DNA of 27,212 nt from the IMG/VR virus record IMGVR_UViG_3300028610_000109, positions 1 to 27,212 of that record. One strand, written 5' to 3'. This document shows positions 18,134-24,375 of the stretch, one piece after another (the stretch's first letter is position 1; every line of letters begins with the position of its first letter). The notes under the pieces were generated by a model that did not search any database, was not told the DNA's origin, and was given only the letters and a program-made list of their open reading frames with translations. Source of the DNA: a virus. The position numbers were made by a program, and so were the translations under genes.

Positions 18134-18511
18134 ATGGAATTCACGCTTGGTGATGTGATAGCAATTGGATCTGTGTTGGTTTCATTGACTGCCTTCTTCT
18201 TTGGTTTGAGGGCCGTCATTAAAGAAAACCACAACTTGCAGCTGATTGAAATTAAGAAAGTCGAAGACAATTCATTACATGTCAGATCATGGGTCGAAAA
18301 AGAAGCTGAAATGCAACTTCGCACATTGCACGAATTACACAACATAAAAGACAGTGACGGTGTGCCAGTCTGGTATGTTAGACAGTCATTGGAAAAGGTA
18401 ATGCAGGGAATGGTCGCAACAGTCGCGCAGTTATCATTGGTAGTACAGGAAAGCAATCTTATCAACAACAAGATATTGGCTGAATTGAAATCCTTTGAGG
18501 TTAAAAACTAA
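18134..18511 (+). CDS. Single-helix membrane protein with coiled coil, 125 aa
   Basis: The ATG follows the previous stop by one base, with an AGGGAATGAA ribosome site. One hydrophobic helix lies near residues 7-25 (DVIAIGSVLVSLTAFFFGL) and the remainder is charged and helical, probably coiled-coil (HVRSWVEKEAEMQLRTLHEL; NLINNKILAELKSFEVK). This resembles hemolysin XhlA-like or inner-membrane spanin-like proteins of lysis cassettes, but no lipoprotein partner is seen and no signature decides. Its stop overlaps the next start (TAATG). Confidence 0.65.
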   Translation: MEFTLGDVIAIGSVLVSLTAFFFGLRAVIKENHNLQLIEIKKVEDNSLHVRSWVEKEAEMQLRTLHELHNIKDSDGVPVWYVRQSLEKVMQGMVATVAQLSLVVQESNLINNKILAELKSFEVKN

Positions 18512-19887
18512 TGGCCGACGCACCCAAACATCAAACCCACAATCCGCCAGCTCGTGGGTTCATATCGCCAGAAAAACTTCATCAAGTCACCGGAGAACCA
18601 ACCGGGAATAGTACAACAGTACCGCTTCAAGCTGGTGGCGTATTCACTGGCGCGACTGAAGAGGTAACTGCTTATACCTCATTAACCATCTTCTGTTTTA
18701 CTGACGTACACTCACAGACAGAAGGGCTCAAGGTACAGTTTTCGACGGACGGCGAGAACTGGGATAAAACCATTTCATATAGCGTTCAAGCCGATGTAGA
18801 TTTTTTTGTATCCATCAAAACAAGATCAAAGTTTTTTAGAGTGATCTACACCAATGAGACGCAAGCGCAGACGTTTTTCAGACTACAGACCATTCTGTAT
18901 GTAAATAGAATAGACGATTTTGATGAATATGACTTAACTGCTATCGCAGACGGTAAAGTACCTGGGAAAACTCTTGTTCACAAATATGGTAGAAATCCGG
19001 ACGTTGGTACTGGTAGCTTTGAGTCTGTGTGGAATGGTGGCGGGGAATATGCAGGACATAACGCCACAGCGGCTGAAATTTTAACAGTCAATAGTAATTC
19101 TGATGAAGACGCAGGTACATTGCTTTCAACAGGAACCAGCACGTCAGGCAATTCAGGCGGGTTGACAGATACTGGTGCAAGTTTCATTACGGACACTGTA
19201 GCTATTGGTGACGTATTAATAAACGATACGCATAAGGCGCATGGAATCATAACTGCACTTACTGAGACGACTGTCAGTGTTGAGAGGATGTCAGGAAAAA
19301 TCAAGACAAACAACGCTGGCGATGTATACAGGATAGTTACCAAAGCAGCCACCGGTTGTCCAGTAGTGAAACTTCTATTTTTGCTTGACGGAAACCTGGA
19401 CAATGAAACATCAGAATATGTGATAACAAACGGGCAATCTCTGGTTGATACCACAGGGACATACAGAAGACAAAGTCGAGGTCGTGCTGTTGGTGGAGAC
19501 TCTGTTGGTGATATAACATGCGCCCAGAAAGTTACAACAGCAAATATATTTATGGTAATGCCCGCAGGATATAACACAACAATGGTTTGTGCATATACAT
19601 TACCCAGAGGTAAGCATGGTCTTTTCGTAAACTGGTTCAGCTCTATACTCGGTTCGACAACCGCGTCAGCTGACATGAGATTACAGACCAGAGAAGTCAA
19701 CGACGTTTTTGTTGTGCAAGAAGAGGTAACTTTGCGAAGTTCTGGAACTTCATATATAGCGAGGGAATTTAGTGTGCCAAAGGACTCGCTTGACGAAATG
19801 ACAGACATAAAGGTAAACGTCCAGGCGTCACTCAACAACACAGTGATATCAGCGGGTTTTGATCTGCTATTGATTGACGATGATTAA
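18511..19887 (+). CDS. Virion appendage protein, tail fibre-like, 458 aa
   Basis: A beta-rich, soluble protein. Residues about 35-125 form a sandwich with VQFSTDGENWDKTISYSVQA and the strand KFFRVIYTNETQAQTFFRLQ. Then comes HKYGRNPDVGTGSFESVWNG with GGEYAGHNATAAEIL, a motif I associate with fibre or structural proteins of marine and environmental phages, and a segment DTGASFITDTVAIGDVLIND with HGIITALTETTVSVERM, another common element of such proteins. The C-terminal 200 residues are a further beta domain. It shares the S.DG/NW sandwich style with the 6167 and 8852 genes. Lysis-type genes on both sides make the location slightly unusual. A structural role is inferred. Confidence 0.7.
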   Translation: MADAPKHQTHNPPARGFISPEKLHQVTGEPTGNSTTVPLQAGGVFTGATEEVTAYTSLTIFCFTDVHSQTEGLKVQFSTDGENWDKTISYSVQADVDFFVSIKTRSKFFRVIYTNETQAQTFFRLQTILYVNRIDDFDEYDLTAIADGKVPGKTLVHKYGRNPDVGTGSFESVWNGGGEYAGHNATAAEILTVNSNSDEDAGTLLSTGTSTSGNSGGLTDTGASFITDTVAIGDVLINDTHKAHGIITALTETTVSVERMSGKIKTNNAGDVYRIVTKAATGCPVVKLLFLLDGNLDNETSEYVITNGQSLVDTTGTYRRQSRGRAVGGDSVGDITCAQKVTTANIFMVMPAGYNTTMVCAYTLPRGKHGLFVNWFSSILGSTTASADMRLQTREVNDVFVVQEEVTLRSSGTSYIAREFSVPKDSLDEMTDIKVNVQASLNNTVISAGFDLLLIDDD

Positions 19888-23131: not shown

Positions 23132-23446
23132 ATGGAAATAATCGAATCATTAGTGCCGGAACAGACCATTGAACAGTTCGCGGATGACCACGATCTCATA
23201 ATGGAAATACATGAGCGTCGAGCAACAGAAAGAACTCAAACCCATTTATCTAGATATTATTGCCATTTCAGGCGCGGCGAGATAAAAGACGGATCGAAGC
23301 TAATTGGAGCCACTGGTAATGGAAACACAAAAGCAGAAGCAATAACAAATTACGCCAACAGAATTTCAGAAAGAAAGTTAGTAATAAACTCGACGAGAAC
23401 TGGCAGAAAAGAGCTGGATGTTCCAAGACTGATAACTGGAATATGA
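23132..23446 (+). CDS. Conserved phage-type hypothetical protein, 104 aa
   Basis: The ribosome site AAGAAGG precedes the ATG. The central part (YYCHFRRGEIKDGSKLIGAT then GNGNTKAEAITNYANRISER) resembles a small family I recall from other phages, with an alternating strand-helix pattern reminiscent of a dsRNA-binding fold: strand, Gly-rich turn, then a helix with AxxNYAxxIS. Function is not known. The stop overlaps the start of the cytosine methyltransferase (ATGA at 23443), so the two are probably co-translated. It could be a methyltransferase partner or an unrelated takeover protein. Confidence 0.7.
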   Translation: MEIIESLVPEQTIEQFADDHDLIMEIHERRATERTQTHLSRYYCHFRRGEIKDGSKLIGATGNGNTKAEAITNYANRISERKLVINSTRTGRKELDVPRLITGI

Positions 23447-24375
23447 ATGTACTTGATCTATTCTCTGGTATAGGTGGCTTTAGCTTAGGGTTAGAAAGAG
23501 CAGGACACAAAACCGTCGCGTTTTGTGAGTATGATGACAAGTGCAGACAAGTATTAACAAAGCATTGGCCTGACATACCAAAATACACCGATGTTAGACA
23601 GCTGACAGGTGAACAACTTGAAAGAGACGGAATCGAATCAATTGAACTTATTTGCGGCGGATTCCCTTGTCAGCCGTTCAGTGTTGCCGGGAACAGAGCA
23701 GGCACGACAGATGACCGTCATCTCTGGCCGGAATATCTCAGACTTATACAGGAAATCAAACCGCGTTGGGTTATTGCTGAAAATGTGCCTGGAATCCTCT
23801 CAATGGAACTCACAGATTTGCTTGTTAGAGTGGAAAACAAAACAATTCTTCGCCAACCAGATTACGACCTATACCAGGCAGAGATCATACGAGAAGCGAA
23901 CATGTTATTCGATGAGCTCTGTGGAGAACTTGAAAAAGAAGGGTACGACGTACTCCCGCTTATTGTTCCAGCTGTCGCCGTCGACGCCAAACATAAGCGA
24001 AACAGAGTCTGGATTATTGCCAACAATGAATCCAAACGGGAGAGACAACAGGAGTTCGTATCCAGGTGCGCCAAATCGCCCAAGTTTGCAGAACATGGCA
24101 AAGAACAATTTATGGCCAACACCAACGCAGTCAGATTACAAAGGCAGCGGTCCAACAGTCATCCGGAAGGACGGAAAGAACAGGATAAACGATCGACTGG
24201 ACTACGCGACGGAACAGACGACGCAAGAGTCTGGCCTGCTGAACCCGGAATGGGTCGAGTGGCTCCAAGGGTATCCGGTGACGTGGACAGACTTAAACAA
24301 TTAGGTAATTCCGTTGTACCAGCCATACCTGAAATATTAGGTGGTTTCATAAAGCAAATTGAAGAGGGTGATTAA
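23443..24375 (+). CDS. C5-cytosine DNA methyltransferase
   Basis: The 310-residue protein has the ordered C5-methyltransferase motifs (PF00145): motif I MNVLDLFSGIGGFSLGLERA, motif IV with catalytic Cys76 in GGFPCQPFSVAGN, motif VI AENVPGIL (residues 112-119), motif VIII HKRNRVWIIAN (184-194), and motif X with GNSVVP (288-293). The target-recognition region is short. Between motif VI and the helix FDELCGELEKEGYDV there is an extra stretch of about 30 residues (LLVRVENKTILRQPDYDLYQ and onward). No cognate endonuclease is near, so self-protection against host restriction or gene regulation is likelier than a full restriction system. Most of its 3' two-thirds is also open in another frame (23609-24304). 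Confidence 0.93.
   Translation: MNVLDLFSGIGGFSLGLERAGHKTVAFCEYDDKCRQVLTKHWPDIPKYTDVRQLTGEQLERDGIESIELICGGFPCQPFSVAGNRAGTTDDRHLWPEYLRLIQEIKPRWVIAENVPGILSMELTDLLVRVENKTILRQPDYDLYQAEIIREANMLFDELCGELEKEGYDVLPLIVPAVAVDAKHKRNRVWIIANNESKRERQQEFVSRCAKSPKFAEHGKEQFMANTNAVRLQRQRSNSHPEGRKEQDKRSTGLRDGTDDARVWPAEPGMGRVAPRVSGDVDRLKQLGNSVVPAIPEILGGFIKQIEEGD
23609..24304 (+). CDS. Overprinted ORF inside the cytosine methyltransferase gene
   Basis: A 231-codon frame lies in the +1-shifted register within the methyltransferase gene. It could start at the GTG at 23609 or, with a better spaced AGCAGG, at the ATG at 23711 (197 residues). It contains patterns I recall from phage proteins in databases: SSQWNSQICLLEWKTK, RLLFQLSPSTPNISETESGL, LWPTPTQSDYKGSG and the end LLNPEWVEWLQGYPVTWTDL. 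The last motif overlays AEPGMGRVAPRVSGDVDRL and the middle one overlays the catalytic-fold VIII region of the methyltransferase. It has no membrane segment or known catalytic motif. Real dual coding, or an ORF forced open by codon constraints, are both possible. Confidence 0.5.
   Translation: MNNLKETESNQLNLFAADSLVSRSVLPGTEQARQMTVISGRNISDLYRKSNRVGLLLKMCLESSQWNSQICLLEWKTKQFFANQITTYTRQRSYEKRTCYSMSSVENLKKKGTTYSRLLFQLSPSTPNISETESGLLPTMNPNGRDNRSSYPGAPNRPSLQNMAKNNLWPTPTQSDYKGSGPTVIRKDGKNRINDRLDYATEQTTQESGLLNPEWVEWLQGYPVTWTDLNN

Follow-up and report, generated by a model that had tools for sequence, protein, structure and literature searches.

A second reading frame under selection within a phage C5-cytosine methyltransferase gene, and its probable role as a target-recognition subunit

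Introduction

C5-cytosine methyltransferases divided between two polypeptides include M.EcoHK31I (YGGCCR), whose larger subunit carries motifs I-VIII and X while motif IX resides alone in a smaller polypeptide, and M.AquI (CYCGRG), which is naturally split (PMC3404938). The phage enzymes M.SPR, M.phi3T and M.H2I carry several target-recognising domains in series, as described in Wilke 1988 and Trautner 1996, cited in PMC8936443 and PMC12707154. Here we analyse a methyltransferase gene, overprinted with a second long open reading frame (ORF), from a 27 kb virus sequence, IMG/VR record IMGVR_UViG_3300028610_000109 (positions 1 to 27,212; this whole stretch is called the window).

M.EcoHK31I is the closest known enzyme, since in both cases the large chain has motifs I-VIII and X without IX and motif IX is found in a second polypeptide or frame, a likeness judged by the published motif layout. 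Its β gene was reportedly described by Lee, Kam and Shaw in 1995 as nested within α in another frame. M.EcoHK31I, however, is part of a restriction-modification system, and the surroundings of the window gene yielded no identified endonuclease. Compared with M.AquI, the window family keeps motif X in the large subunit and has its putative second subunit overprinted, and whereas the multispecific phage enzymes are single chains, its modules lie in the other frame and in a predicted second polypeptide.

Results

The methyltransferase ORF (α; 23443-24375, plus strand like all features of this gene; 310 amino acids, aa) encodes a catalytic subunit with motifs I-VIII and X and without motif IX, and the second ORF (β; 23609-24304, 231 aa, GTG start) lies wholly within it in the +1 frame. 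The first-pass annotation of the window had described this 231-codon ORF inside the methyltransferase gene, with second-frame motifs overlying particular methyltransferase residues, and both descriptions hold. It had also proposed that evolution has retained the two frames, which would make the gene dual-coding, a proposal that passed every test reported below. The products were named α and β because motifs I-VIII and X on one side and motif IX on the other are split over the two frames.

Shuffling of synonymous codons in the window methyltransferase introduced a mean of 10.3 stops into the +1 frame, which stayed open in none of 300 shuffles. Over 192 distinct loci the shuffles predicted 1,222 second-frame stops and 0 were observed, although this zero is partly built in because the loci were partly collected by similarity to the second frame. 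Held-out hidden Markov models (HMM) gave β 184 bits, compared to 47 once the α codons had been shuffled, and gave α 214 bits, compared to 48 after shuffling of the β codons; whichever of the two frames was tested, 185 of 185 loci outscored every one of their shuffles. When columns were tested individually, 131 of the 193 β columns exceeded the conservation of the shuffles with a z over 5; tryptophan 75, for example, was conserved in 102 of 102 sequences (26% expected from shuffles), and serine 39, within the conserved block MTVISG (23711-23728; MTxTSGRK in the family), in 96% (32% expected).

Substitutions, taken as raw sequence-to-sequence counts within pairs (simple counting, multiple hits uncorrected), pointed the same way. 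Among 66 independent close pairs, the changes were distributed over the three α codon positions as 43/16/41% inside the overlap and 21/11/68% upstream of it, and ω (the ratio of non-synonymous to synonymous change) for β was 0.27 for transitions and 0.37 for transversions. Transition rates in the overlap were 0.026 for changes non-synonymous in both frames, 0.095 for those non-synonymous in α only, 0.106 for those in β only and 0.248 for those synonymous in both, the last being close to the rate of synonymous changes outside the overlap (0.236). In 71 pairs, the interval between motifs VIII and IX had an ω of 0.90-1.39 for α and 0.21-0.34 for β, and motifs IV-VIII had 0.22-0.32 for α and 0.46-0.65 for β. 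The α frame is thus nearly neutral between VIII and IX, where β is constrained, and is the more constrained of the two over IV-VIII. These results indicated that the overprinted frame is real, ancient and selected, and that the gene is dual-coding with purifying selection in both frames. The outcome that the first-pass annotation had named as fatal to its proposal, a second frame broken by stops or free of constraint beyond that of the methyltransferase, is clearly not what the homologues display.

The α product matches PF00145 (E 1.7e-43) and carries motifs I, IV (catalytic PCQ, in GGFPCQPFS; 23656-23682), VI (ENV), VIII (HKRNRVWI; 23992-24015) and X (QLGNSVVP; 24298-24321) as members of that family do, but it covers only profile positions 1-190 of 324 and does not contain the recognition domain and motif IX that PF00145 enzymes have in the same chain. 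Ordinary methyltransferases of the same genomes extend to the end of the profile, whereas the dual-coded ones end near position 165. The profile of the α-frame family aligns with residues 10-179 of M.HhaI, with a further weak piece at 295-318, and the M.HhaI stretch between the two pieces contains the recognition domain and motif IX. An AlphaFold model of α was good outside residues 211-279, and its ordered part matched M.HhaI (Z 24.3, 2.3 Å, 201 residues). Residues 211-279 (24073-24279) form a linker predicted to be disordered, with a predicted local distance difference test score (pLDDT) of about 42-51, mostly below 50 over residues 214-275, at the position of the target-recognition domain in other C5-methyltransferases.

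The motif IX pattern was sought upstream of motif X in 172 dual-coded loci and found in the α frame of none, in the +1 frame of 138 and in the +2 frame of none, while ordinary C5-methyltransferases had it in their own frame in 21 of 29 cases and in other frames in 0. The large chain without motif IX and a predicted second chain with it, the arrangement of M.EcoHK31I, are therefore both present by pattern in these 138 loci and in the window, where the β block LNPEWVEWLQGYPVTW (24239-24286) follows the spacing L-x7-L-x-G-F/Y-P-x-x-W of ordinary motif IX. A profile-profile alignment independently landed on the same block. In DNA order, α motif X begins 6 residues past it, the commonest value in the family, compared to 13 in ordinary enzymes.

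Translation of β would probably start at TTG 23618 instead of GTG 23609, because the family N-terminus and the sole good Shine-Dalgarno match (AGGTGA, 23607-23612, separated by a 5-nt spacer from TTG 23618-23620; candidate site 23607-23620) both indicate the former. The start at 23609 given by the first-pass annotation is right for the ORF but probably not the point of initiation. A Shine-Dalgarno match of at least 5 nt with a start codon, located 18-46 codons ahead of the MTxTSG block, was present in 60% of loci and in 24% of synonymous shuffles, and internal initiation would be the simplest reading of how β is produced. Downstream lies a conserved block, RLLFQL (23957-23974), predicted to form a strand. 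The best BFVD match of the β model, a phage 'putative cytosine-specific methyltransferase' (E 0.048), was discarded as too weak.

β matches phrog_1008 (E 1e-25), which PHROGs labels DNA methyltransferase. A tblastn search with β returned 121 phage records, of which 68 covered 80% or more of the β sequence, with identities of 29-36% (phages of Lacticaseibacillus, Paenibacillus, Bacteroides and others), and a search with a second β-family member returned 163, including phages of Klebsiella, Salmonella, Xanthomonas, Pseudomonas and Vibrio, which bears out the statement in the first-pass annotation that unrelated phage entries contain similar motifs. Full-length homologues, from phages as well as prophages, are spread over eight bacterial phyla at least, and the hosts include Bacillota, Bacteroidota, Pseudomonadota, Acidobacteriota, Planctomycetota, Chloroflexota, Spirochaetota and Fibrobacterota (Chitinivibrionales). 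In 239 sequences (the window, annotated phages, and IMG/VR and GTDB contigs) the second ORF was in the +1 frame of the methyltransferase ORF in 238 of 245 overlaps; four loci were exceptional, three through frameshifts that swap the frames and one through a tandem duplicate. All 80 loci collected with the methyltransferase frame alone had a homologous second frame, these being the nearest 80 and many of them lying on the same contigs as the β-based set. Genomes evenly sampled from two phyla gave a match in 29 of 398 and 6 of 299, the true rates being slightly lower because the weakest matches are ordinary methyltransferases, and additional loci out of some 700 genomes show the same arrangement.

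No convincing stand-alone β was found in viral and genome contigs (231 loci) or in about 700 genomes, and nothing was found at L278, a locus examined as a candidate. A single β-like match had no methyltransferase with it (L284; E 1.3e-5, 95 codons, no conserved motifs) and appears to be fortuitous. Short β-like matches in L276, L277, L279 and L289 are ordinary methyltransferases with in-frame motif IX.

Several loci of the family show rearrangements or repetition. Single frameshifts that swap the frames have moved motif IX or X to the other ORF in L119:2706-3754, L124:2772-3999 and L138:2868-3585, and may represent sequencing error, decay or natural fusion. Two dual-coded methyltransferase genes stand in tandem in L026:133-1952, with a second frame in each. 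Identical dual-coded genes occupy five places in one Roseovarius genome (L112-L116) and three Lihuaxuella thermophila contigs (L109-L111), which suggests repeated prophages.

In phages the β family has been annotated inconsistently, as DNA methyltransferase or as hypothetical. The homologue is a 'g50 internal gene' in Redbud and an 'Mte8-like protein' adjoining a C-specific methylase in K1ind3; in PMG1 the second frame alone is annotated and is named methyltransferase. The second frame alone is also annotated in a Porphyromonas phage (L004:1724-2710), its methyltransferase ORF (TTG start) being unannotated. The literature searched contained no analysis of the function or dual coding of phrog_1008, 'Mte8-like' or 'g50 internal gene', and nothing relevant on overprinted or nested methyltransferase genes was found among the open-licence papers searched.

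The C-terminal half of β consists of a series of 0-6 units that start with [LM]WPTPxAxD and have a median length of 40 aa; the target-recognition module of multispecific phage enzymes is about 40 aa long. In 112 pairs of modules the identity was 60% or more across 80% of the module, yet the α frames of the two loci were less than 50% identical, the extreme pair having 91% identity compared to 38.7% for the α frame, and the same module type occurred at differing positions in the array. In the window, a degenerate first module (LLPTMNPNG..., 24014-24109) has one weak match elsewhere only, and the second (LWPTPTQSDYKGSGPTVIRKDGKNRINDRLDYATEQ..., 24110-24238), a candidate target-recognition cassette, is 71-82% identical to modules of L009, L019, L006 and L239 (E. 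coli Kayfunavirus and K1ind3 included). The β modules thus behave in a manner resembling the recognition cassettes of multispecific phage enzymes, by which analogy they may recognise DNA. Two enterobacterial loci that share the module type of the window (L006:1937-2803 and L239:1607-2536) have a shorter or divergent α N-terminus, and the largest arrays, each a run of five or six WPTP modules, belong to the second-frame proteins of L120:2947-3990 and L076:2455-3522.

Near its N-terminus, in a low-confidence part of the model, β of the window contains the pentapeptide QLNLF (23639-23653), resembling the documented sliding-clamp consensus QLSLF (PMC4549789). A QL(T/N/S/D)LF-like sequence, most commonly QLTLF, was found in this region in 52% of β homologues and in 2.4% of synonymous shuffles; because part of it overlies the α residues before GGFPCQ the pattern is partly dictated by α, but its frequency is not. 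Clamp binding by the β N-terminus is a hypothesis that this pattern suggests.

The other genes of the window form a tailed phage set (portal, major head, major tail, tape measure, tail fibre and replication initiation). The α ATG overlaps the stop codon of an upstream 104-aa ORF (ATGA, 23443-23446), as is typical of translational coupling. Elsewhere in the window, a 287-codon minus-strand ORF (18978-19841) overlaps a plus-strand ORF (18511-19887).

Discussion

We consider it probable, at roughly 85%, that at this locus a single piece of DNA encodes both subunits of a C5-cytosine methyltransferase, with β as an internally started target-recognition and motif IX subunit of the M.EcoHK31I kind. 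Frame 0 would yield α, with the cofactor-binding and catalytic motifs I-VIII, the disordered linker and motif X, and internal initiation in the +1 frame would yield β, whose N-terminal part shares its DNA with α motifs IV-VIII and is followed by the recognition region and motif IX. The order along the DNA, I-VIII (α), recognition region and IX (β) and X (α), would then be that of a single-chain enzyme with its recognition part in the other frame. β would bind α, thus completing the cleft that holds the DNA, and would determine which sequence is methylated, and the phage DNA would thereby be protected against host restriction. We infer the translation of β, heterodimer formation, recognition by β and the anti-restriction role from these data. 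The first-pass annotation had pictured a second protein riding on the enzyme; the dual coding stands, but mere riding does not, since the second half of the overlap appears to serve as β while α is there a near-neutral linker.

Several points weigh against this assignment. The motif IX alignment extends over a short stretch of 16-17 columns (HHalign probability 2-5%, P 0.008-0.023), and the pattern is missing in 34 of the 172 loci. The AlphaFold model of β is poor (pLDDT 63.7, predicted template modelling score 0.32) and a Foldseek search of the PDB matched it to no structure, so that a small-domain fold for β is a conjecture. The predicted recognition domain of M.EcoHK31I was assigned to the larger subunit (PMC3404938), whereas in the window family selection and structure place it in β.

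Other explanations of the same overlap have to be considered. That both frames code but β stands outside the enzyme, with a regulatory, anti-restriction or other role of its own, would agree with its lack of a match in Pfam and NCBIfam scans and a PDB sequence search, and with an N-terminal half that has no counterpart in ordinary C5-methyltransferases. We regard this as unlikely, because motif IX and the recognition domain are missing from α exactly where β has its motif IX block, α is neutral precisely where β is constrained, and no stand-alone β appeared in the viral contigs, genome contigs and about 700 genomes searched. A programmed frameshift that fused α motifs I-VIII with the +1 frame into one chain, with no separate β, would produce a nearly ordinary enzyme, given the DNA order of I-VIII in frame 0 and then recognition region and IX in +1, and the frameshift in L119 does join both in a single ORF. 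It would leave unexplained, however, the conservation of β upstream of motif VIII, where the +1 frame is conserved over motifs IV-VIII (W75, S39, L122), well before the first place where a shift could occur; the +1 frame is moreover opened by an enriched Shine-Dalgarno match and start codon, and the fused chain would be without motif X, a motif still conserved in frame 0. We hold this mechanism to be quite improbable.

The least credible alternative is that the second frame is an untranslated by-product of codon bias or methyltransferase conservation. Some β columns (e.g. G40 and G54) are wholly dictated by the α frame and stops are fewer in high G+C genomes, but all shuffle and substitution-class tests contradict it, low G+C loci included, and the shuffle, HMM, column and substitution tests together rule out a chance ORF or codon bias.

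Returning to the two-subunit enzyme, a more speculative extension, in our judgement less likely than not, is that β is a plug-in specificity cartridge with a clamp-binding N-terminus and a variable array of exchangeable recognition modules of about 40 aa. Phages might then change or add targets by module swaps and methylate newly made DNA at the replication fork, the swapped DNA being neutral α linker in the other frame.

The kind of enzyme proposed here is itself known. What the literature searched does not appear to describe is how widely it occurs, the way in which selection passes from one frame to the other region by region, the arrays of modules and the clamp-like motif. Few dual-coding arrangements of phages or bacteria are as long or as widespread, and a functional reason is now proposed for this one. 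It would account for many phage genes annotated as 'DNA methyltransferase' or 'hypothetical', and a gene caller that allows no overlaps would lose half of an enzyme. M.EcoHK31I would cease to be an oddity and would probably stand as the type of a family. Should the modules prove to be recognition domains, matching their cassettes with the methylation motifs of long-read methylomes could give a readable code of phage methylation specificity.
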